A stretch of DNA of 45,576 nt, from positions 1 through 45,576 of IMG/VR virus record IMGVR_UViG_3300030106_004614, one strand, 5' to 3'. This document shows, in pieces, positions 3,055-43,351 of this stretch. How positions within the stretch are numbered: position 1 is the first letter of the stretch; each line of letters starts with the position of its first letter. A program made the position numbers and the translations under genes. This DNA is from a virus. The notes beneath the pieces were generated by a model that was given only the letters and a program-made list of their open reading frames with translations, did not search any database and was not told the origin of the DNA.

Positions 3055-3075
3055 GGTAATACCTAAATAGGAAGA

Positions 3076-3120
3076 CGGTGCAGATCATAAACTGAGTAGC
3101 CAAGTCTAATCACTGCACCG
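3076..3120 (-). promoter_or_regulatory. Leader stem-loop before the basic-protein cluster
   Basis: CGGTGCAG (3076-3083) is fully complementary to CTGCACCG (3113-3120), and a nested AGACT/AGTTT helix can form inside. It lies between the 3136-3288 gene and the start of 2761-3054. No T run follows on the minus strand, so it is more likely an mRNA-stability, processing or attenuation element than a simple terminator. Confidence 0.5.
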
Positions 3121-3135
3121 CCTCAAGCCCTTTTA

Positions 3136-5763: not shown

Positions 5764-7802
5764 CGTTTAATCCTCTTCAAACTCACACTAGCATTTTCCC
5801 AGTGCTGCCTCATATCATCGGTAACTTTCCACAGATTAGTAGGGCGACCTGCCTTACCTTTCTTGATCTTCTCACTGACTACAATCTTCAGCTCTTGAAG
5901 GTCTACCAGTCTTCTCTGGACAGATGAGATTGATATCTGAAGAGCTTCTGCAAGTTTCTCTACGGTTATGCCATAAGGGTTGTGAATCATCTCACGATAG
6001 ATTTCACTGTGCCACCCATGAGCAGTCGAGAATGCTACCTTCTCCATCAGTTTATAAATCTCTTCGTCGATAGCATCTTTGCCTTTAACGTAAGCACAGG
6101 ATCGCCCCAACTTCACTAACTGGTTAGCTAGTCGAGTACCAATCTCAGGTCTAGGACGATAAGATACGTCTTCATTACGCTCTCTGAGAACGCTGGAGCG
6201 TAGTTTACCTACGATCTGGCATAGAGATACCACCCTGTCGATGACCCAATCTGGAACATCTGGAAGGTTATCTTCATTGTATTTCTCAGTCAGGTGATAG
6301 ATAAATGCTTCCACACAATCTTTAAGACCATGCTCTGCTTTTACGTTTGCTACCAAGTTCTTTAAGGAAGCCCTGATCTGCGCATCCTGATTGTACTCTT
6401 TGTCAGAGGGGATCATCTCCACCTTTAGAAATCGCTCTCCAAGAGCAGCCCTATTATCCCCATGAACAACATCAGTAATCCCAGCGACGATAGAAAAGTG
6501 AACCTTGGGGTAATTACGCTTAACCCCATTCCCATACTCAACAAGAACCGAACCATCATAGGCATCACGAAGGATTCCATACAAATTCTCCTGAACAACA
6601 ATAGGCATACTCTTGATGGCAGTAAAGTCTTTAATCAGTAGAGTGTTACCATCTAGCTGAGACAGGAGGGATGGGTCAGAGCCATCTTCTTGTTTCATCC
6701 CTGAAACGAAAGCAGTAGCTGTTAGCTTAGACCTGAAGACACAGGCTTCAGCATTCTGAAAAGATTGAAGGATCATTGACTTACCACAACCGGGCGGGCC
6801 AACAAGATATATCCACAACGGATCGCCAATAATCATGTTACTAGCAACAGTTGAGATGGTCATTAACAAGGCTTCTTCCATGTCCTTGTTAAAGTGTAGC
6901 TTGGACTTGAAGTCCTTCAGTAGTGAATTGAAGCTGGTTCTCTTTACCTTGGGCTTAGAGGACTTACCAGCATCGTCCAGAATCATCTCTTGAAGTCTCT
7001 TCCAAGTCTTCTTAGACGTTCCATACTCGTTGATTAAGTCACGGACATCATACTTGTCAGGAGTATTTACAGGCCAATGAATAGACTGTAAAGTCTTCGC
7101 AGTGTCACGAAGGGTATCAATCACTTTGATCTTACCGTCCTGCCCAGAAGCATCGTTATCGTACAGAAGTATTACATGACGATCCTTAAAGTACTGAACC
7201 CAGTCTTTCTTAAACGTCTCAGCACCCCCTACGCCCACTACAGACGCAGTTGTAATCCCTGCCTTATCCATTAAGCTCAGGAGAGCTAGAGCGTCCCATT
7301 CGCCCTCACAGACGTATATAGGGCCAGTATCACCAATCTTGTTAGCTCTGTAGAGATGTCGAGCGCAACCTGTGGTACTACGAGTCTTTCCCTTGGTAAG
7401 GGATTTGTCGTAGGTCATCAGGTTAACCACATTCTCTGAGGTGGGAGTCCAGATGGGAATCAACCAACGATCCGTGAACTTGTCGTAGGCTATCTTCTCA
7501 CGTTTCAAAACGTACTGAGAGATTCCTCGTTCTTTGCCAAATTCCTTATACTGCTTTTCAGTCGTATCCTCACGACACTGCTCAGCTATTTTAGTCAGGA
7601 AATTGTAACCATTACCCTTCTCCCCACAGGTCTTACAGTGGTACTGACCTCGGGCTTTAGAGACATAAAATTTACCTTCCTTGGCACAGAAAGGGCAGTC
7701 GCCTATGACTTGAGTCCCTCCTTTGTCCTCTAGTTCAAGTCCATGAGAGGTAAATAGTGCTACCTTGTTATCACCATTCTTGCTTTTTAATTTAGTTGCC
7801 AT
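5760..7802 (-). CDS. Bifunctional DNA primase-helicase, 680 aa
   Basis: An N-terminal zinc ribbon has Cys36, Cys39, Cys56 and Cys59 (CPFC...CKTC). A TOPRIM domain follows, with the glutamate motif VCEGEWDAL at about 164-172 and YDND at about 214-217. A AAA+/P-loop motor has Walker A GPPGCGKS at 335-342 and a Walker-B-like LLIKDF. The C-terminus carries a winged-helix-like segment (GITVEKLAEALQISISSVQR). This layout fits a phage enzyme that unwinds DNA and lays down primers at the fork, working with the DNA polymerase and SSB encoded nearby. The motor looks closer to AAA+ D5/MCM-type helicases than to the T7 gp4 DnaB-like one. AGGAGC precedes ATG. Confidence 0.85.
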   Translation of the reverse strand: MATKLKSKNGDNKVALFTSHGLELEDKGGTQVIGDCPFCAKEGKFYVSKARGQYHCKTCGEKGNGYNFLTKIAEQCREDTTEKQYKEFGKERGISQYVLKREKIAYDKFTDRWLIPIWTPTSENVVNLMTYDKSLTKGKTRSTTGCARHLYRANKIGDTGPIYVCEGEWDALALLSLMDKAGITTASVVGVGGAETFKKDWVQYFKDRHVILLYDNDASGQDGKIKVIDTLRDTAKTLQSIHWPVNTPDKYDVRDLINEYGTSKKTWKRLQEMILDDAGKSSKPKVKRTSFNSLLKDFKSKLHFNKDMEEALLMTISTVASNMIIGDPLWIYLVGPPGCGKSMILQSFQNAEACVFRSKLTATAFVSGMKQEDGSDPSLLSQLDGNTLLIKDFTAIKSMPIVVQENLYGILRDAYDGSVLVEYGNGVKRNYPKVHFSIVAGITDVVHGDNRAALGERFLKVEMIPSDKEYNQDAQIRASLKNLVANVKAEHGLKDCVEAFIYHLTEKYNEDNLPDVPDWVIDRVVSLCQIVGKLRSSVLRERNEDVSYRPRPEIGTRLANQLVKLGRSCAYVKGKDAIDEEIYKLMEKVAFSTAHGWHSEIYREMIHNPYGITVEKLAEALQISISSVQRRLVDLQELKIVVSEKIKKGKAGRPTNLWKVTDDMRQHWENASVSLKRIKR

Positions 7803-8195: not shown

Positions 8196-8845
8196 TATTT
8201 GACTCCTAATTCGTCTTTCAAGTGTGATTCGTAGTTAATTACTTCTGCAACAATTTCACTAAGATAGCTCAATACAGTTGACTTGTTATCGTGACGAGTC
8301 TCTCGGTAAACAAGAGGGTTCACTATTGAGACACGTTCGTTGTCCATGTAACAGACGTTGGGGGAGATAACCCATCGATGATCGCATCCACCAGTTTCAT
8401 CCTGAAACCAAGCAATCTTGATGAAAGCATCGTGCTTACCGCTAGCAGGCTTGTATTTCGCTCCGAGCTTCGTTGATTTACAACTCCAAGTCTGAGCATG
8501 ACCGTGGAGACCCCACGGGCGAACTCTACGGTCTTCTGGTCGCAACTTGTCACGACCAATGTGGATATCAATCCACGCTCCGTGCAGATATGGATGGTCT
8601 TGATAACGCTGCTGATTAGCTTCCAGCTCGTCACTAGCGTCCTTCCACCTTCGGGAGTAATTCATACTTCCAGAGTGGACGTTAACGTAGTAACCAAGCG
8701 ATTCGAGAGGTGCTTTGATCTCATCCAGAAGTGCATTCAGATTGTTCGTCTGGGTTACTATACGACGATCATGCTGTAGTTCCAGCTCTTTTCGCTGTTC
8801 TTTGTGTTCTTCGATTTTCTGTTCTAGTAGTGCTGAGAAATTCAT
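8195..8845 (-). CDS. Hypothetical protein with N-terminal coiled coil, 216 aa
   Basis: Residues 1-45 are a charged helix (LEQKIEEHKEQRKELELQHD). The remainder is mixed alpha/beta with several Trp and His (GAWIDIHIGRDKLRPEDRRV, WGLHGHAQTWSCKST). A strong AGGAG site lies 8 bases before ATG. It is the first gene after the promoter and motif region 8896-8950. No family was recognised; a replication-accessory role is only a guess from context. Confidence 0.6.
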   Translation of the reverse strand: MNFSALLEQKIEEHKEQRKELELQHDRRIVTQTNNLNALLDEIKAPLESLGYYVNVHSGSMNYSRRWKDASDELEANQQRYQDHPYLHGAWIDIHIGRDKLRPEDRRVRPWGLHGHAQTWSCKSTKLGAKYKPASGKHDAFIKIAWFQDETGGCDHRWVISPNVCYMDNERVSIVNPLVYRETRHDNKSTVLSYLSEIVAEVINYESHLKDELGVK

Positions 8846-15967: not shown

Positions 15968-17524
15968 ATGTCACTTTTTGAAACAGAAACAATCGTTGGT
16001 TCCACAGAACAAGAAGCATTCTGGGGGGAGCTAGTTGACGGAAATTCACACATCTTTCTAGAAGCCCGTGCAGGGACTGGAAAGACTTTTAGTTGCATAG
16101 AAGGTTGCAAGCGATACTTGGATAAACATCCAGACGCTAAGATTGCAATGGTTGCATATAACAAATCTATCGCAACTGAGTTACAGGAAAAGGTTCCTGC
16201 TGGAGTCACTGCTTGCACTATGCACAGTCTTGGCTTTAAGGCTGTTCGTGAACGCTACGGTAAAGTCAAAGTTGATAACTGGAAGACTGCTAACATCGCT
16301 GAAAAGCTGATGGGGAAACGACAGTGGAAAGGAGCAGGAGCTTCATTCCAAATGGGTCTTCGCAAAGTGGTAAGCCTTGCTAAAAATACCTTGCTAGATT
16401 GGGAAGAAGATTACACCCGTCAGTTCAATTCTTTGGTTGCTCATTACAACCTTCAGTTGAATGGTGCTGAGAAAGCTATTAAAGCCCTTATCCCAGAAAT
16501 ACTCCAGCACAGCGAAGATGATGTTTTAGAAAATGGCATCATTGATTTTGATGATATGATTTGGTTGCCAACATTATCTAATTGTTCTGTTGATACCTTT
16601 GACATGTTGTTCGTGGATGAAGCTCAGGACTTAAACAAGTCACGACAAGAGCTAGCTCTAAATGCTGTCCGTCATGACATGGAAGACCACGGTCGTCTGA
16701 TTGTTGTAGGTGACCCAAAGCAGGCTATCTACGGATTCGCTGGAGCAGATGCTTACAGCATGATCAACCTTCGTAATCGTGTGGAGCATCAGGACGTAAT
16801 GACTCTTCCTTTGACTATCACTCGACGATGTCCTAAAAGCCATGTAGCTTTGGCACAGAAGATTGTTAAAGACATCCAGCCAATGGATGATGCGATTGAA
16901 GGCACAGTAATGGATATGCCTATAGAAGCTCTCTATTACGATGAACAGTTTACTGATCCTAACGAAACATTAGTTCTGTGTCGCATGAATGCTCCTTTGA
17001 TGGCATTCGCTTACCAGTGTATCTCTCGTGATATCCCATGTATGATTCAAGGGAAAGATATTGGTAGCTCACTTGTAACTCTTTGTAACAAGTTAGCAGG
17101 TAAAAATATTTCAATGAGTATTCCTGAGTTTCAAACTCAACTTAGTCAGTACCATATTAAAGAAGTTCAGCGATTAGACGCTAAAGCTGTTAATACTCGG
17201 GTAAGCAAAACTGCTTATGAAATGCTAGGTGATAAGGTGCAATGCATTGAGTTGCTCTGTGAGGGTGCTAGCATCGTCGGAGACGTTATCAATCGCATTA
17301 AGAAGCTCTTTGATGACACTAGCAAGGGTCAACGTAAGAATAAGATTGTGCTGTCCTCTGTGCATCGTGCTAAAGGTTTGGAAGCAGATACAGTCTACAT
17401 TCTGGAAGAGCAGATGATGCCTCACCCAATGGCAGAGCTGGAGTGGGAGATTGAACAGGAACATAACATTCGTTATGTCGCATTAACCCGAAGTAAAAAC
17501 ACTTTGATATTAGTGAGGAAGTAA
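15968..17524 (+). CDS. UvrD/Rep-type superfamily 1 DNA helicase, 518 aa
   Basis: All hallmark motifs are intact: Walker A ARAGTGKT (residues 33-40), motif II FVDEAQDL, motif III VVGDPKQAIYGFAG, motif V VHRAKGLEADTVYIL and motif VI YVALTRSKNTL. It is a compact SF1A helicase translocating 3'-5' on single strands; roles in phage replication or recombination are typical. It is the first plus-strand gene, downstream of motif copy D. GGAG lies about 10 bases before ATG. Confidence 0.9.
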   Translation: MSLFETETIVGSTEQEAFWGELVDGNSHIFLEARAGTGKTFSCIEGCKRYLDKHPDAKIAMVAYNKSIATELQEKVPAGVTACTMHSLGFKAVRERYGKVKVDNWKTANIAEKLMGKRQWKGAGASFQMGLRKVVSLAKNTLLDWEEDYTRQFNSLVAHYNLQLNGAEKAIKALIPEILQHSEDDVLENGIIDFDDMIWLPTLSNCSVDTFDMLFVDEAQDLNKSRQELALNAVRHDMEDHGRLIVVGDPKQAIYGFAGADAYSMINLRNRVEHQDVMTLPLTITRRCPKSHVALAQKIVKDIQPMDDAIEGTVMDMPIEALYYDEQFTDPNETLVLCRMNAPLMAFAYQCISRDIPCMIQGKDIGSSLVTLCNKLAGKNISMSIPEFQTQLSQYHIKEVQRLDAKAVNTRVSKTAYEMLGDKVQCIELLCEGASIVGDVINRIKKLFDDTSKGQRKNKIVLSSVHRAKGLEADTVYILEEQMMPHPMAELEWEIEQEHNIRYVALTRSKNTLILVRK

Positions 17525-17525
17525 A

Positions 17526-17723
17526 ATGAATACTCAAACAGAAATTGTAAAGGTAACAAAAGCCTTAGCGAAAGAGTACCACTTCCTCGATCCAGAAATG
17601 GAGGAAGGGAAGTGGGAAGTGAAGGTCACTTTCAAAGACGAATCAGTTGAGTATTATGGCCCGTATAATACTAAGAAAGAGGCTGAGGAAGCTCGACGGG
17701 GAATGAAAAAGTCTAAATGGTAA
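17526..17723 (+). CDS. Hypothetical small protein, 65 aa
   Basis: The gene starts one base after the helicase TAA, behind AGGAAG. It is a charged beta-beta-alpha-type protein (GKWEVKVTFKDESVEYYGPY, KKEAEEARRGMKKSKW). The pattern V.F.DG....GPY.T..EAE.A resembles small phage proteins with a single compact fold. No function was recognised. It is followed by a 233-base gap rich in RNA structure. Confidence 0.65.
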   Translation: MNTQTEIVKVTKALAKEYHFLDPEMEEGKWEVKVTFKDESVEYYGPYNTKKEAEEARRGMKKSKW

Positions 17724-17731
17724 ACCTGTTG

Positions 17732-17839
17732 CTCCCGACAATTAGCTGGTTGTATATCAGCAGGGAGAGCCAAGCTGTGAGTGGCTTTGTAACCGCAGTG
17801 TTTCATTGACCTAGTGTCACTTACCCTTTCCGACACTAG
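17732..17839 (+). ncRNA. Series of three stem-loops in the plus-strand intergenic gap
   Basis: In the transcript, CTCCC (17732-17736) pairs with GGGAG (17763-17767) around an inner GCTG/CAGC helix. AGCCA (17768-17772) pairs with TGGCT (17782-17786). CTAGTGTC (17811-17818) pairs with GACACTAG (17832-17839), a perfect 8-bp stem. No T run follows any of them, so they are not ordinary terminators. No coding frame covers this gap on the plus strand. Confidence 0.5.
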
Positions 17840-17849
17840 TGTCCTCCAA

Positions 17850-17937
17850 AAGAACTGGCGAGACTACGAGTCCGGTGTAGTCCAAAACCGTAACCGAGTA
17901 AGATTGTGTCTTGCGTAAGTCGGATAAGCCAATTCTT
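17850..17937 (+). ncRNA. Candidate three-way-junction RNA element
   Basis: A closing helix AAGAACTGGC (17850-17859) with GCCAATTCTT (17928-17937) pairs at 9 of 10 positions. It encloses two hairpins: GACTAC, 9-base loop, GTAGTC (17862-17882); and CCGA GTAAGA, loop TTGTG, TCTTGC, bulge, TCGG (17894-17923). The element ends 20 bases before the GTG start of the next gene, beside its AAAGGAA site, so it could control that gene or be a processed RNA. No known riboswitch class was recognised. Confidence 0.55.
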
Positions 17938-17956
17938 TCTTTAAAGGAACTTAAAA

Positions 17957-18211
17957 GTGAAGACAAAAATACATATCAATCAACACATCATTAAATACAA
18001 TCGTAAACACAATAAATCTGAACCATGCATTACGGTTAAAGATTATAAAGAAAATAGATACGCAAGTACTGTTTATATCGTAGATAGCGAAGGAGAAGTC
18101 GTAGCCAAGGTTATCTACAGTCCAAACAAACCCCTTACCTGCGGAGCAGAGTGCTGGGTAGAAACAGAACTAAAAGTTGTCACAGAAGATAAGGAGCTTA
18201 CTAATGGCTAG
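17957..18211 (+). CDS. Hypothetical protein, 84 aa
   Basis: Translation starts at GTG behind AAAGGAA. The protein is beta-rich (ITVKDYKENRYASTVYIVDS, EGEVVAKVIYSP, CGAECWVETELKVVTED). Its stop codon overlaps the start of the next gene (ATGGCTAG). It follows directly after the branched RNA element 17850-17937, which may regulate it. No family was recognised. Confidence 0.65.
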   Translation: MKTKIHINQHIIKYNRKHNKSEPCITVKDYKENRYASTVYIVDSEGEVVAKVIYSPNKPLTCGAECWVETELKVVTEDKELTNG

Positions 18212-18623
18212 CTATAACGATAAACAAATGTCAGAAATGATGGAACAGGTTCTTCTCTGGAAGAGGGAACTCAGTAAGATAGAACAGCTGTCATTGTTAT
18301 TTGAAGAGATCGATGAGGGGTCTTTGGCAGTGGAAGAAGAGCTGTCATTGTACGACCCAGAGGCTGTATCCCCAGAGATAGTAGATAACTACTGGTCAGA
18401 CTACAACAGAACAGCGCGTCTCATGAGGAGCTTACAACAGGCTAGTAGATTTATTATGGAGTACATCTATCCTGAAGCCTTTTCTGAGATGAAAGTTAAG
18501 TTAGCTTCAACAGGCATTTACAACAGTGAACGTAAGTGCAGTAAGTGTGGAGTAAATATAGAAATGTGTATAAACGCAGAGGAACTCTGCATAGATTGTT
18601 CTAAGGAGAAAGAAAATGAGTAG
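18204..18623 (+). CDS. Hypothetical helical protein with C-terminal zinc ribbon, 139 aa
   Basis: AAGGAG lies 8 bases before ATG 18204, preferred over the upstream frame start. The first 110 residues are acidic and helical. The end carries two Cys pairs (CSKCGVNIEMC and CIDCSKE), a probable zinc ribbon. Phage proteins of this type often contact nucleic acid or host polymerase, but no specific family was identified. Confidence 0.65.
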   Translation: MASYNDKQMSEMMEQVLLWKRELSKIEQLSLLFEEIDEGSLAVEEELSLYDPEAVSPEIVDNYWSDYNRTARLMRSLQQASRFIMEYIYPEAFSEMKVKLASTGIYNSERKCSKCGVNIEMCINAEELCIDCSKEKENE

Positions 18624-19032
18624 CGATAAGATGATTAAGGTTTTAGGTATTCAATGGTCTGGAGAAACAATACAAACTACTGTAAAGCAAAATACAGCTC
18701 TGGAAGAGATGAAAGCTATTGCAGGGTATGATGTTGGTCAGCCTGTGTTTTTAGATGGAGTCACTATGATTGTTAATGACAATGGCATTATGGATGGTGA
18801 CCCAATAAACAAAGTAGCAACCAGCTACTTACATGGAACAGTACTTCATCACCTTGGTTCAATTACCCCAACAGGTATTCACGGAAATGTTTTCTTAGTT
18901 GGAGATATAGGTGATGAAGTGTGGGTTGATTGTCCGATTAAAGAGATGGAAAGAGTCGACCATATCAAACGTGCTTATGGCATGGCGATACAAGAAAACT
19001 GTGAAGGTTGGGTAGACGTTTCTGTAAATTAA
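18616..19032 (+). CDS. DUF3846-like protein, 138 aa
   Basis: The core pattern FLDGVTMIVNDNGIMDGDPI, NKVATSYLH and GNVFLVGDIGDEV matches the layout of DUF3846 proteins (vNe.G.l..lp.N..At......i.GnvlvvG). The function of that family is unknown; it is common in phage early regions. The ATG overlaps the previous gene. It is the last gene of the plus-strand early operon, followed by a branched RNA and a terminator. Confidence 0.65.
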   Translation: MSSDKMIKVLGIQWSGETIQTTVKQNTALEEMKAIAGYDVGQPVFLDGVTMIVNDNGIMDGDPINKVATSYLHGTVLHHLGSITPTGIHGNVFLVGDIGDEVWVDCPIKEMERVDHIKRAYGMAIQENCEGWVDVSVN

Positions 19033-19040
19033 ACTGGGAT

Positions 19041-19110
19041 GCTGACAGGGTCTAGTTAAACTCTCGGACTAGGCTACATATGGGGTGTAGTCATTCCCTG
19101 TCAGCTTTTT
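19041..19110 (+). ncRNA. Three-way-junction RNA ending in a T run (terminator or sRNA)
   Basis: A perfect 10-bp closing helix, GCTGACAGGG (19041-19050) with CCCTGTCAGC (19096-19105), is followed by TTTTT. Inside are two hairpins: CTAGT/ACTAG (19052-19072) and GCTACA/TGTAGT (19073-19091). The second hairpin shares GGTGTAGTC with the hairpin of the 17850-17937 element. It starts 8 bases after the DUF3846-like gene. It could act as a terminator, and its branched shape suggests it may also be a stable 3'-end-derived RNA. Confidence 0.65.
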
Positions 19111-19187
19111 AATAAATAAGACTGTATGGAGCTGTTGACAGAACGCAGTCTATAAATCAGAATTGTTATTGAAACGGTTCGGTTCAC

Positions 19188-19229
19188 GCCTCCTTGGGTT
19201 TGTTAGGCTCCTCCCAAGGGGGCTTTTTT
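19188..19229 (+). terminator. Rho-independent terminator of the plus-strand early operon
   Basis: GCCTCCTTGGG (19188-19198) pairs over 11 positions (one G-T) with CCCAAGGGGGC (19213-19223), followed by six T. It separates the early operon from the convergent 911-residue gene. It is the second termination-type structure in this gap. Confidence 0.9.
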
Positions 19230-19230
19230 A

Positions 19231-19243
19231 TTCGCTCAAGCAT
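19231..19243. repeat. 13-bp repeat TTCGCTCAAGCAT, copy at the 3' side of the 911-aa gene
   Basis: This exact copy lies 3 bases beyond the TAG stop of the 19247-21982 gene. The copy at 22013-22025 lies just before the start of the same gene, so the pair flanks it as direct repeats. Confidence 0.85.
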
Positions 19244-19246
19244 ACC

Positions 19247-21982
19247 CTATGACGGGTCACCACTGGCATCTCTATTAGAACCATTGCTTGCGTTACCTGC
19301 GTAAGCATCTGCACAGGGGTCTTGCAAAGTTTCAGCAAAACCAACATAAGTTGCGCCGGGATTCCATCTTGCTTGAAGTTGAGTAACAACAGGATCGTTG
19401 CCAGCCTTTACTGCTTTAACTAGTATTCCGTCTTCCCATGAAAAAGTATATATAGTGCTACCGTCTCCTCCTAATATAGATATGTTTCCACTTAGGCCGG
19501 GCTTTGTCCATTTCATTTTTGTAGCACTATTATTATGTCCTCTAACAGTTAAATGCTGTCCTGCTAATGAACCGCTACCATATGATGAGTAGGCTTGACT
19601 CATATGTACATCATCATTTGGAAATATAAGTTTTCCTGTACTAGTAGTTTTATTACCAGCAGGAGAATGGCTTCCTCCTGCTGCTAAACTACCTCCGATA
19701 GGTTCTGATTCAGCATCAGCAGGAGCTATTGGCACTTGGCAAGTAAGAGTATACCCACTAGTCCCTGCTCTCTCTGCTCCAACTAAAAAATCAATGCGTG
19801 GAGGTTCACCAGTAAACCTATCACCTATCTCTAAATAAGAAGCTAACTTAGGCGCACGACTCCAACGTATAATATTTCCATCTGACCATAGAACACCTCC
19901 TCCAATTTTTCGAGAAGGATTAAAAGAGATAAGCATTTCATTTTCTTTTAAGCCTCCTGCTTGCGAGTAAGCATATCCACAAGCATCACCTTCGACGTAA
20001 TCATCTCCTCTTTTATAACTTCTTAGCATGGTTTGTTTGTTTACCCGCAGAAACTTTACAGTTTCAATACAGTCATCATGTCCATACTTGTCGATTCTTG
20101 CAGTGTTCTTTCCAGAGGCCTGACTCATGTTAGGCCCTCTATCTACAGTTGCACATATCTCGCCACCTCTTAGATTAAATGCTCCTCTGGGGTTGGCGAG
20201 CCAGAACCTCATTTGCTCATTAAACCAAGCAAAGTAACGCTCCCCTGCTGTTAGTGCGACAGAATCGTCTATGTTCTTAACTTCAATATCTTTAAGTGAA
20301 GCATGAAAAACTAACGCTTCATCCCCATTCTCAGAAATTCCATATTCAATAGAACAAGTCCCTACAGCACCTCCAGCAATGTCTTCGTCAGGTTTAATTA
20401 ATGCCCAACGAAAAGCAGGTTCCATCCATCTTGCATGGTCAGGTGGACTAGGACTTTCATTGGACACTCTTCTACTGAGAGCTTCATGGTATTCGTGAGA
20501 ATTGCTGTATTCACCCGCAGTTCCTCCTCTACCGTACCCCTCAGTCTCCATATAGTCCTCCTCAGAGGCTATAGGGCAGCTTTCAATGATAGTTACAGCT
20601 CCACGTCCAGTATTCTTCCAAATGATCTTAGAGAGGTCGTGAGAAGGTTCAAAAGGAATATAGCCTTGGTACACCTCTCTTACAATTTTTTTATCACCTC
20701 TAACCCTAGCTTTTATCCAACGAAGGGCGCGTTCCTGAACCTGAGTTGCAATTTGGCTATTGTTAATAGGAAGAATTGAACCTTCATTAGCAGGGTCTTC
20801 ATTAGGTTCTCCTGCACCATGCAGCCTTGCTGCCCATTGAGCTGGCAAACTGTCATGAAGTATTTGACAAGTTCCAGCTTGAAGTGTTACGTCTTGAGGT
20901 GCTTCTGGAACGTATGCAAGTAATGTTTTTGTGTCTTTTTCAACAGCCCAACAAGGATGATTGTGCCAGTAATCATTAGCAGTTACTTCTTGAGGGTCAT
21001 CAGATGTTTGCCAGTTGTAATCTAGTCTAGGAAAGATAACCCAAATTTTTTCTGGGAGAGTTAGGCCATTACTGTCGTTACTTACTTCAAGTAGTTCTGA
21101 TTTATACTTTTCTCTTTGTGTGTCAGAAGTTGAAGGAGGTTCAGTTCCCATATCCCAGACAGAAGAAGTTCCGTCTAAGTTTCTTACTATGGTATGCTCT
21201 ATATCATTTAAGGTGTGATGAAAAGCATCTAAAGCATTAACCCCAAAGTAGTAATAATTTTTTGGGCCTTCAAGACTGTAGTTAGCGTTAGCGTGGTCTA
21301 AAGAAGATTGCGTTCCCCACAAGTCATCTAGCATTGTTTTCCAAGTGAAGCCCTCGTGTCTCTTGTACACTACGCTAGCGTCATTATCTAACCACCATCT
21401 AGTTTTAAGATTAAACGCACCTACATATCTAGATAATTTATGCCAGTATCGATAGTCAACAACTTTGACTAAGTACATCTGATCTTCATAAGGATCAGAT
21501 GTTATGCTGTCCCCACTGTCATACCCTGCTTCTAAAAAACTTATTCTAGAATATTCTTCATCATGTTTAGTGATGTCTTTTCTAATTACACCTGTAACAG
21601 CATAGGCTTCTACAGCGTACAGTTTTTTTATTTCTGTTTCTATGTGGTTGCCTGTAGTAGCACCACCGAAAGCTGGATCATTCCCTGCTTCTAATTCTGC
21701 TGCTTCATCTTTGATGACTATTGAGCAATTATCAAAACCTTTACCTTCCCAGATTTGAGGAAGAAAGTTTCTTACATCATTAGCTCTAAGTAAAAACCAA
21801 GCGTACAGCTCGTTCCTTCCTCTACAGCTATAATGAATTTCATTAGCTTTATTAAGAAGAGTTTCTACATTCTTTCCTCGTTTCCTGCGATCTGCAATTA
21901 GATACGCAGGATTAAACAAAGTAAGAACTTTTCCGTTAGCAGTTAACTCTATTCTTGTATGCCTAGCACCTGCATAAGTCAT
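19247..21982 (-). CDS. Large virion-type protein of unknown family, 911 aa
   Basis: The protein begins MTYAGARHTRIELTANGKVL. It is rich in Trp, Tyr, Gly and Asn with long beta-type stretches (GYTLTCQVPIAPADA, KLIFPNDDVHMSQAYSSYGS near the C-terminus). No signal peptide, membrane segment or catalytic motif was recognised. Its size and its place at the end of the head-tail transcript behind the portal suggest a baseplate, fibre or receptor-binding protein. It is flanked by direct 13-bp repeats, and motif copy E lies just upstream. Confidence 0.65.
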   Translation of the reverse strand: MTYAGARHTRIELTANGKVLTLFNPAYLIADRRKRGKNVETLLNKANEIHYSCRGRNELYAWFLLRANDVRNFLPQIWEGKGFDNCSIVIKDEAAELEAGNDPAFGGATTGNHIETEIKKLYAVEAYAVTGVIRKDITKHDEEYSRISFLEAGYDSGDSITSDPYEDQMYLVKVVDYRYWHKLSRYVGAFNLKTRWWLDNDASVVYKRHEGFTWKTMLDDLWGTQSSLDHANANYSLEGPKNYYYFGVNALDAFHHTLNDIEHTIVRNLDGTSSVWDMGTEPPSTSDTQREKYKSELLEVSNDSNGLTLPEKIWVIFPRLDYNWQTSDDPQEVTANDYWHNHPCWAVEKDTKTLLAYVPEAPQDVTLQAGTCQILHDSLPAQWAARLHGAGEPNEDPANEGSILPINNSQIATQVQERALRWIKARVRGDKKIVREVYQGYIPFEPSHDLSKIIWKNTGRGAVTIIESCPIASEEDYMETEGYGRGGTAGEYSNSHEYHEALSRRVSNESPSPPDHARWMEPAFRWALIKPDEDIAGGAVGTCSIEYGISENGDEALVFHASLKDIEVKNIDDSVALTAGERYFAWFNEQMRFWLANPRGAFNLRGGEICATVDRGPNMSQASGKNTARIDKYGHDDCIETVKFLRVNKQTMLRSYKRGDDYVEGDACGYAYSQAGGLKENEMLISFNPSRKIGGGVLWSDGNIIRWSRAPKLASYLEIGDRFTGEPPRIDFLVGAERAGTSGYTLTCQVPIAPADAESEPIGGSLAAGGSHSPAGNKTTSTGKLIFPNDDVHMSQAYSSYGSGSLAGQHLTVRGHNNSATKMKWTKPGLSGNISILGGDGSTIYTFSWEDGILVKAVKAGNDPVVTQLQARWNPGATYVGFAETLQDPCADAYAGNASNGSNRDASGDPS

Positions 21983-43224: not shown

Positions 43225-43272
43225 GGGCTTGTCTCCAATGTGAGCTTGCCAGAGGCTGCGCTCTTGCTTTGT

Positions 43273-43336
43273 CCCGCTTAGGCGGGAGTAACAGCAGTAG
43301 GTTATTAGAATCTGCTGTTACTCCGTTAATCGCCTA
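43273..43336. other. Long interrupted hairpin in the leader of the nuclease gene
   Basis: GGAGTAACAGCAG (43285-43297) is perfectly complementary to CTGCTGTTACTCC (43312-43324). Outside it TAGGCG (43279-43284) pairs with CGCCTA (43331-43336). A competing hairpin CCCGC, TTAG, GCGGG (43273-43286) uses part of the same bases. There is no T run on the minus strand, so the switch-like structure may act on RNA stability, processing or translation of the SNase gene. Confidence 0.65.
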
Positions 43337-43351
43337 GACACGGGGGAGGTG

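Follow-up and report, generated by a model that had tools for sequence, protein, structure and literature searches.

A pseudoknot-containing leader and a separate 3'-end three-way junction as candidate structured RNAs in one operon of an uncultured phage

The operon studied here appears to contain two unrelated structured RNAs, a cis-acting mRNA leader and an independent three-way junction at its 3' end, a reading to which we give a probability of about one half. It is located in a 45.6-kb IMG/VR phage record, which was analysed over its whole length and is referred to as the window. A first-pass annotation had described two branched elements, E1 and E2, each consisting of two hairpins inside a closing helix of 9–10 pairs, and both folds were recovered at their positions as minimum free energy (MFE) and centroid structures. 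It missed the best-conserved part of the locus, a pseudoknot-containing core at 17728–17848. The structures, their conservation and their noncoding status are seen directly, and from these we infer the functions discussed below. Covariation-supported homologues are rare for structured RNAs of uncultured phages, and this locus yields two compact, well-delimited RNA candidates whose conserved nucleotides are defined and which are open to direct probing.

Genomic setting and relatives

The window encodes DNA polymerase, primase, portal, terminase and tape-measure proteins. The plus-strand operon (15968–19032) consists of a UvrD-like helicase gene, a 65-aa ORF, a phrog_8676 ORF, an ORF with CxxC motifs and a DUF3846 ORF, and a minus-strand gene (19247–21982) converges head-on with it. 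E1 is situated inside the 233-nt gap preceding the phrog_8676 ORF (17957–18211, plus strand, GTG start) and, as first reported, just before a ribosome binding site, the Shine-Dalgarno (SD) sequence AAAGGA at 17943 (17943–17959 together with the start). E2 is found in the 214-nt gap bounded by the stop codon at 19032 and the end of the convergent gene at 19247, in front of the T run (TTTTT at 19106) that had also been noted. Further downstream lies a conventional terminator of the operon, distinct from E2 (19188–19229, plus strand; 11-bp stem, 14-nt loop, T6), for which the hairpin scan reported a partial stem, and similar terminators are carried by the relatives L003 and L007. As a side observation, the operon-final terminator in three diverged phages (window 19176–19229, L007 about 8530–8590, L129 about 7507–7563) has GGTTCGGTTC or a closely similar sequence in front of it and CTCCTCC in the loop or on the 3' side.

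A search with the helicase revealed one near relative, L002 (protein 96% identical), and the diverged L003 to L008 (55–58%), among which L003/L004 and L007 have kept a related gap after the helicase gene. A scan that used the conserved box GTGAGTGGCTTTGTAACC, described below, as its pattern added L127 and L123. L123 is a 58-kb phage unrelated to the window apart from the leader core, with neighbouring genes for an AAA ATPase, a VWA-type protein (assigned by inspection), SSB and a Lar-like protein. L126, L129 and L130 have the same sequence as L003. In total, the comparison covers five different leader sequences and, for E2, two diverged lineages.

When checking for coding frames over both regions, as the first-pass annotation had proposed, the E1 and E2 gaps were found to be noncoding; stops occur in every frame (a single one in one minus-strand frame of the first gap) and both gaps show 1–2-nt indels compared with a relative that is 93% identical. 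Frames across the leader core are likewise broken, by stops in the window and by a frameshift in L127 relative to L007. In L007 an ORF (6767–7273) is open through the core into the downstream gene, but it is probably accidental because the near-identical L127 is frameshifted, and the other relatives have stops; a coding function of the core was therefore rejected.

No family in Rfam 15 reached its gathering threshold in the region 17500–19250 at two sensitivities (best E 0.1–4, scores far below gathering), in agreement with the earlier remark that the elements match no described RNA class, and resemblances to a group I intron, a hammerhead ribozyme and a purine riboswitch were dropped since Rfam was negative and the conserved core motifs were absent. 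Neither the region nor the pseudoknot matched any named phage in nucleotide searches, and a pattern scan of GTDB genomes gave no match with the structure. When viral contigs were scanned with relaxed patterns for the pseudoknot and for E2, only the lineages listed above were returned, the remaining matches being due to chance or coding and having no flanking structure.

The leader core and E1

The whole gap of ~230 nt (17724–17956) suggests a noncoding cis-regulatory mRNA leader, as its core recurs in four lineages and each time precedes a small gene. The core is positioned just 5' of E1 and comprises, all on the plus strand, a hairpin (H0), an H-type pseudoknot and a second hairpin (H2). H0 (17732–17767) has an outer stem at 17732–17736/17763–17767 and an inner stem at 17745–17748/17758–17761 with an asymmetric internal loop (8-nt/1-nt). 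Comparison of the window, L007/L127, L003 and L123 (the latter for the inner stem only) showed compensatory changes in both stems, with all cells paired. The pseudoknot (17767–17798) is formed by S1, AGCCA/TGGCT (17768–17772/17782–17786), and S2, CTGTG/CGCAG (17775–17779/17794–17798). Pairs 1 and 2 of S2 covary across four lineages, and L003 has one mismatch in each of S1 and S2. Within the pseudoknot the near-invariant box GTGAGTGGCTTTGTAACC (17777–17794) is identical at 18/18 positions in the window, L002, L003, L007, L127 and L123, the identity in L123 being a selected one as that match was obtained using this very pattern. H2 (17811–17839, loop ACTTACCCTTTCC at 17819–17831) shows double-sided changes in 6/7 compared pairs across four lineages, all paired, although the registers of H0, S2 and H2 were set by hand and the perfect pairing in H2 is thus partly by construction.

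A covariance model of the core built from the window and L002 only and run against 425 kb detected L127 (E = 6.5e-9), L007 (4.6e-8), L003 (9.3e-7) and L123 (0.003; 4e-4 when the L123 record was searched alone), matching once per record. As judged from these sequences the core is more widely shared than E2, and the presence of a pseudoknot leader in otherwise unrelated phages may point to a regulatory input that these phages have in common during infection.

The segment 3' of H2 varies. In the window and L002 it contains E1 (17850–17937, plus strand), a three-way junction with the closing helix 17850–17859/17928–17937, a first hairpin at 17862–17867/17877–17882 and a second at 17888–17890/17921–17923 with an inner stem at 17898–17904/17908–17914. 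Its folding energy (-23.8 kcal/mol, z = -2.3 against dinucleotide shuffles) is by itself modestly better than chance. The differences in L002 are all compatible with pairing but single-sided (A-U to G-U, G-C to G-U and G-U to A-U), and where the window has a C-A mismatch, L002 has C-G. Only L002 shares the fold; in L003, L007 and L123 there is no three-way junction at that place, the site in these farther relatives being occupied by a short hairpin (loop ctGAGTAC in L003/L007) or a perfect terminator. In L123 (3880–4060, minus strand) the core is followed directly by this terminator, with a 12-bp stem, and then by GGAGG and the ATG of the Lar-like ORF. Because the L002 changes are all single-sided, the E1 fold is considered probable in the window/L002 clade only, where E1 would be the variable 3' part of a longer leader.

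A conserved core combined with a variable 3' part is the pattern expected of a putative sensing domain with an expression platform. The first gene after the leader is the phrog_8676 ORF in the window and the Lar-like gene in L123, while the gene in L007 and L003 is homologous to the next ORF of the window (E = 5e-12 for L007), and these differing gene families argue against one dedicated metabolite switch. Complementarity between the H2 loop and the downstream SD amounts to 5–6 nt, which is not significant against shuffled loops.

The three-way junction E2

E2 (19041–19105, plus strand) consists of P1 (19041–19050/19096–19105), hairpin 1 (19051–19057/19067–19073, loop AAACTCTCG) and hairpin 2 (19074–19078/19086–19090, loop TATGGGG), and since the stem is branched it was omitted by the simple hairpin scan. 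The fold of 19041–19110 is clearly more stable than expected by chance, with -29.7 kcal/mol, z = -5.2 and 0/200 equally stable shuffles. A covariance model from the window and L002 only identified E2 in L007 (E = 1.4e-5) and L127 (1.7e-5) at the corresponding place, after a DUF3846-like gene, the protein of which can be aligned with that of the window across 22 residues only. In the alignment fitted to the model 14/22 pairs are doubly changed and 100% of cells are paired with none broken, compared with 31–46% in slid controls; this count stems from two diverged lineages, and L127, which is one register off L007, inflates the P1 part. A hand alignment gave double changes in 11/21 pairs. The compensatory changes sought at homologous loci were accordingly present in E2 and in the leader core, while for E1 the search yielded the single-sided changes of L002. 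Constant across the E2 lineages are the loops AAACTCTCG and GGGG and the 5' flank AACTGGGA (19032–19039), identical in the window, L002, L007 and L127. A model of four sequences (R3) detected no additional copy of E2 in 13 viral records or in 68 further loci.

The tract 3' of E2 (19106–19110) is T5 in the window and L002 and TTTAAT in L007 and L127. This weak T tract in L007 argues that termination is not the conserved feature of E2, which from its location between convergent genes is most likely a 3'-end structure or a branched terminator. For the L007 sequence, another folding of the inner part is favoured over the three-way junction by about 4 kcal/mol, and E2 might therefore switch between the two folds there. 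Kissing of the two loops (ACUC/GGGU in the window, UCUC/GGGA in L007) was considered and set aside, the 4-nt complementarity being weak and shifting in register between lineages. In L007 a second branched hairpin, CCTCGCCACC...GGTGGCGGGG, is located at 8240–8295 and followed by ATTTTTT; the inner loop of this hairpin, AAACTCGGA, is similar to the loop AAACTCTCG of E2.

Proposed functions and alternative readings

In the mechanism that we propose, the 5' domain of the leader (H0, pseudoknot and H2) would serve as a recognition module. A factor from the phage or the host, on binding the pseudoknot, would shift the 3' platform, i.e. E1 in the window, the short hairpin in L003/L007 and the perfect terminator in L123, between states that permit and do not permit expression, and the platform, followed by the SD of the small gene, would control the downstream genes through SD access or termination. 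E2 could act as a transcription terminator with the conventional one at 19188 as a backup or, alternatively, as a barrier protecting the 3' end of the mRNA, possibly with a protein bound at the conserved loops AAACTCTCG and GGGG.

A more far-reaching version, which we hold only tentatively, is that the leader core represents a new class of phage regulatory RNA that has moved between unrelated phages, and E2 a second class, also new, that caps the operon. The pseudoknot would then sense a phage or host factor and a loop resembling the 16S rRNA tail would switch translation or termination downstream. The same loop raises the unlikely prospect that the core works in trans, as a small RNA that processing or termination sets free. 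The H2 loop is of a pyrimidine type, with CCTCCTT, a copy of the 16S rRNA 3' tail, in L003, L007, L127 and L123 (three lineages) despite their differing stems, and if exposed it could, with the same low likelihood, pair with SD sequences or titrate a factor. The terminator immediately 3' of the core in L123 and the single copy per phage would fit such an RNA, but the window and L002 have ACCCTTTCC in this loop, which is not an exact anti-SD, no recognisable promoter lies directly upstream in the window and the RNA sits within an operon.

That the conserved sequence is a DNA site, such as an origin of replication or a hairpin-bearing site bound by a protein, seems improbable. The box is found in one copy in each record and adjoins the helicase gene in 3/4 lineages, but covariation such as that in S2 is not easily explained in duplex DNA, a gene in the same orientation lies downstream of the element in every case, and in L123 the element follows ssb rather than a helicase gene.

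The first-pass suggestion that E1 and E2 form one regulatory family or a pair is largely refuted, and we regard it as very improbable. Their overall shapes are alike, with 16/22 identity over one hairpin, and the shared 9-mer GGTGTAGTC does occur at exactly two sites, 17874 and 19084, where 0.23 are expected per shuffled window. These sites are, however, in different hairpins (hairpin 1 of E1 and hairpin 2 of E2), the 9-mer is missing from the E2 counterpart in L007/L127, which also lack a three-way junction corresponding to E1, the E1 junction being restricted to the window and L002, and the R3 model of E2 does not match E1 when run over 17700–19250 with filters off at E<=10. By this comparison E1 and E2 are taken to be real structured RNAs unrelated to each other. 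Equally far-fetched is a decoy antitoxin against a host type III toxin-antitoxin system, as in phage pseudo-ToxI (PMC3475682), for which the ~32-nt H-type pseudoknot has the right size and lies in a phage operon, with a terminator following in L123, but which is contradicted by the single copy without tandem repeats of the pseudoknot unit, the negative result for ToxI in Rfam and the lack of toxin family matches among the scanned neighbours.

Comparison with known systems

The leader pseudoknot through which gene 32 of phage T4 is autoregulated (PMC535899, PMC3014915) resembles the present leader in being a pseudoknot in a phage mRNA leader before a phage gene and a plausible nucleation site for a bound protein. 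It differs in that the downstream genes here are not ssb, the core in L123 instead following ssb, and in that two more conserved hairpins, H0 and H2, as well as a large variable platform are present here. Leaders of the riboswitch or ribosomal-protein type share the conserved 5' pseudoknot domain and, in cis to the start codon, the variable 3' part, a terminator or an SD-proximal structure; unlike those, the leader has no Rfam match, varied downstream families and a very narrow distribution, in phages only.

With a Rho-independent terminator E2 has in common a GC-rich helix of 10–11 bp followed by T5 between convergent genes, but its helix encloses two hairpins with conserved loops, the 5' flank is conserved, the T tract is poor in the relative and a normal terminator is present 80 nt downstream. 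The prohead RNA (pRNA) of phage phi29 is, like E2, a small phage three-way junction with conserved sequence in two loops. E2 differs by the weak 4-nt loop complementarity (register shift judged by inspection), by the lack of an Rfam match and in genomic setting and phage type.

Other structured regions of the window

Two further hairpins were observed on the minus strand. In the intergenic gap at 43225–43351, GGAGTAACAGCAG...CTGCTGTTACTCC lies inside a second stem, giving a nested hairpin of very high stability (z about -6 relative to shuffles), and at 3055–3135, between two ORFs, a 12-bp hairpin, GGCGGTGCAG/CTGCACCGTC, carries an inner hairpin (z about -3.7).
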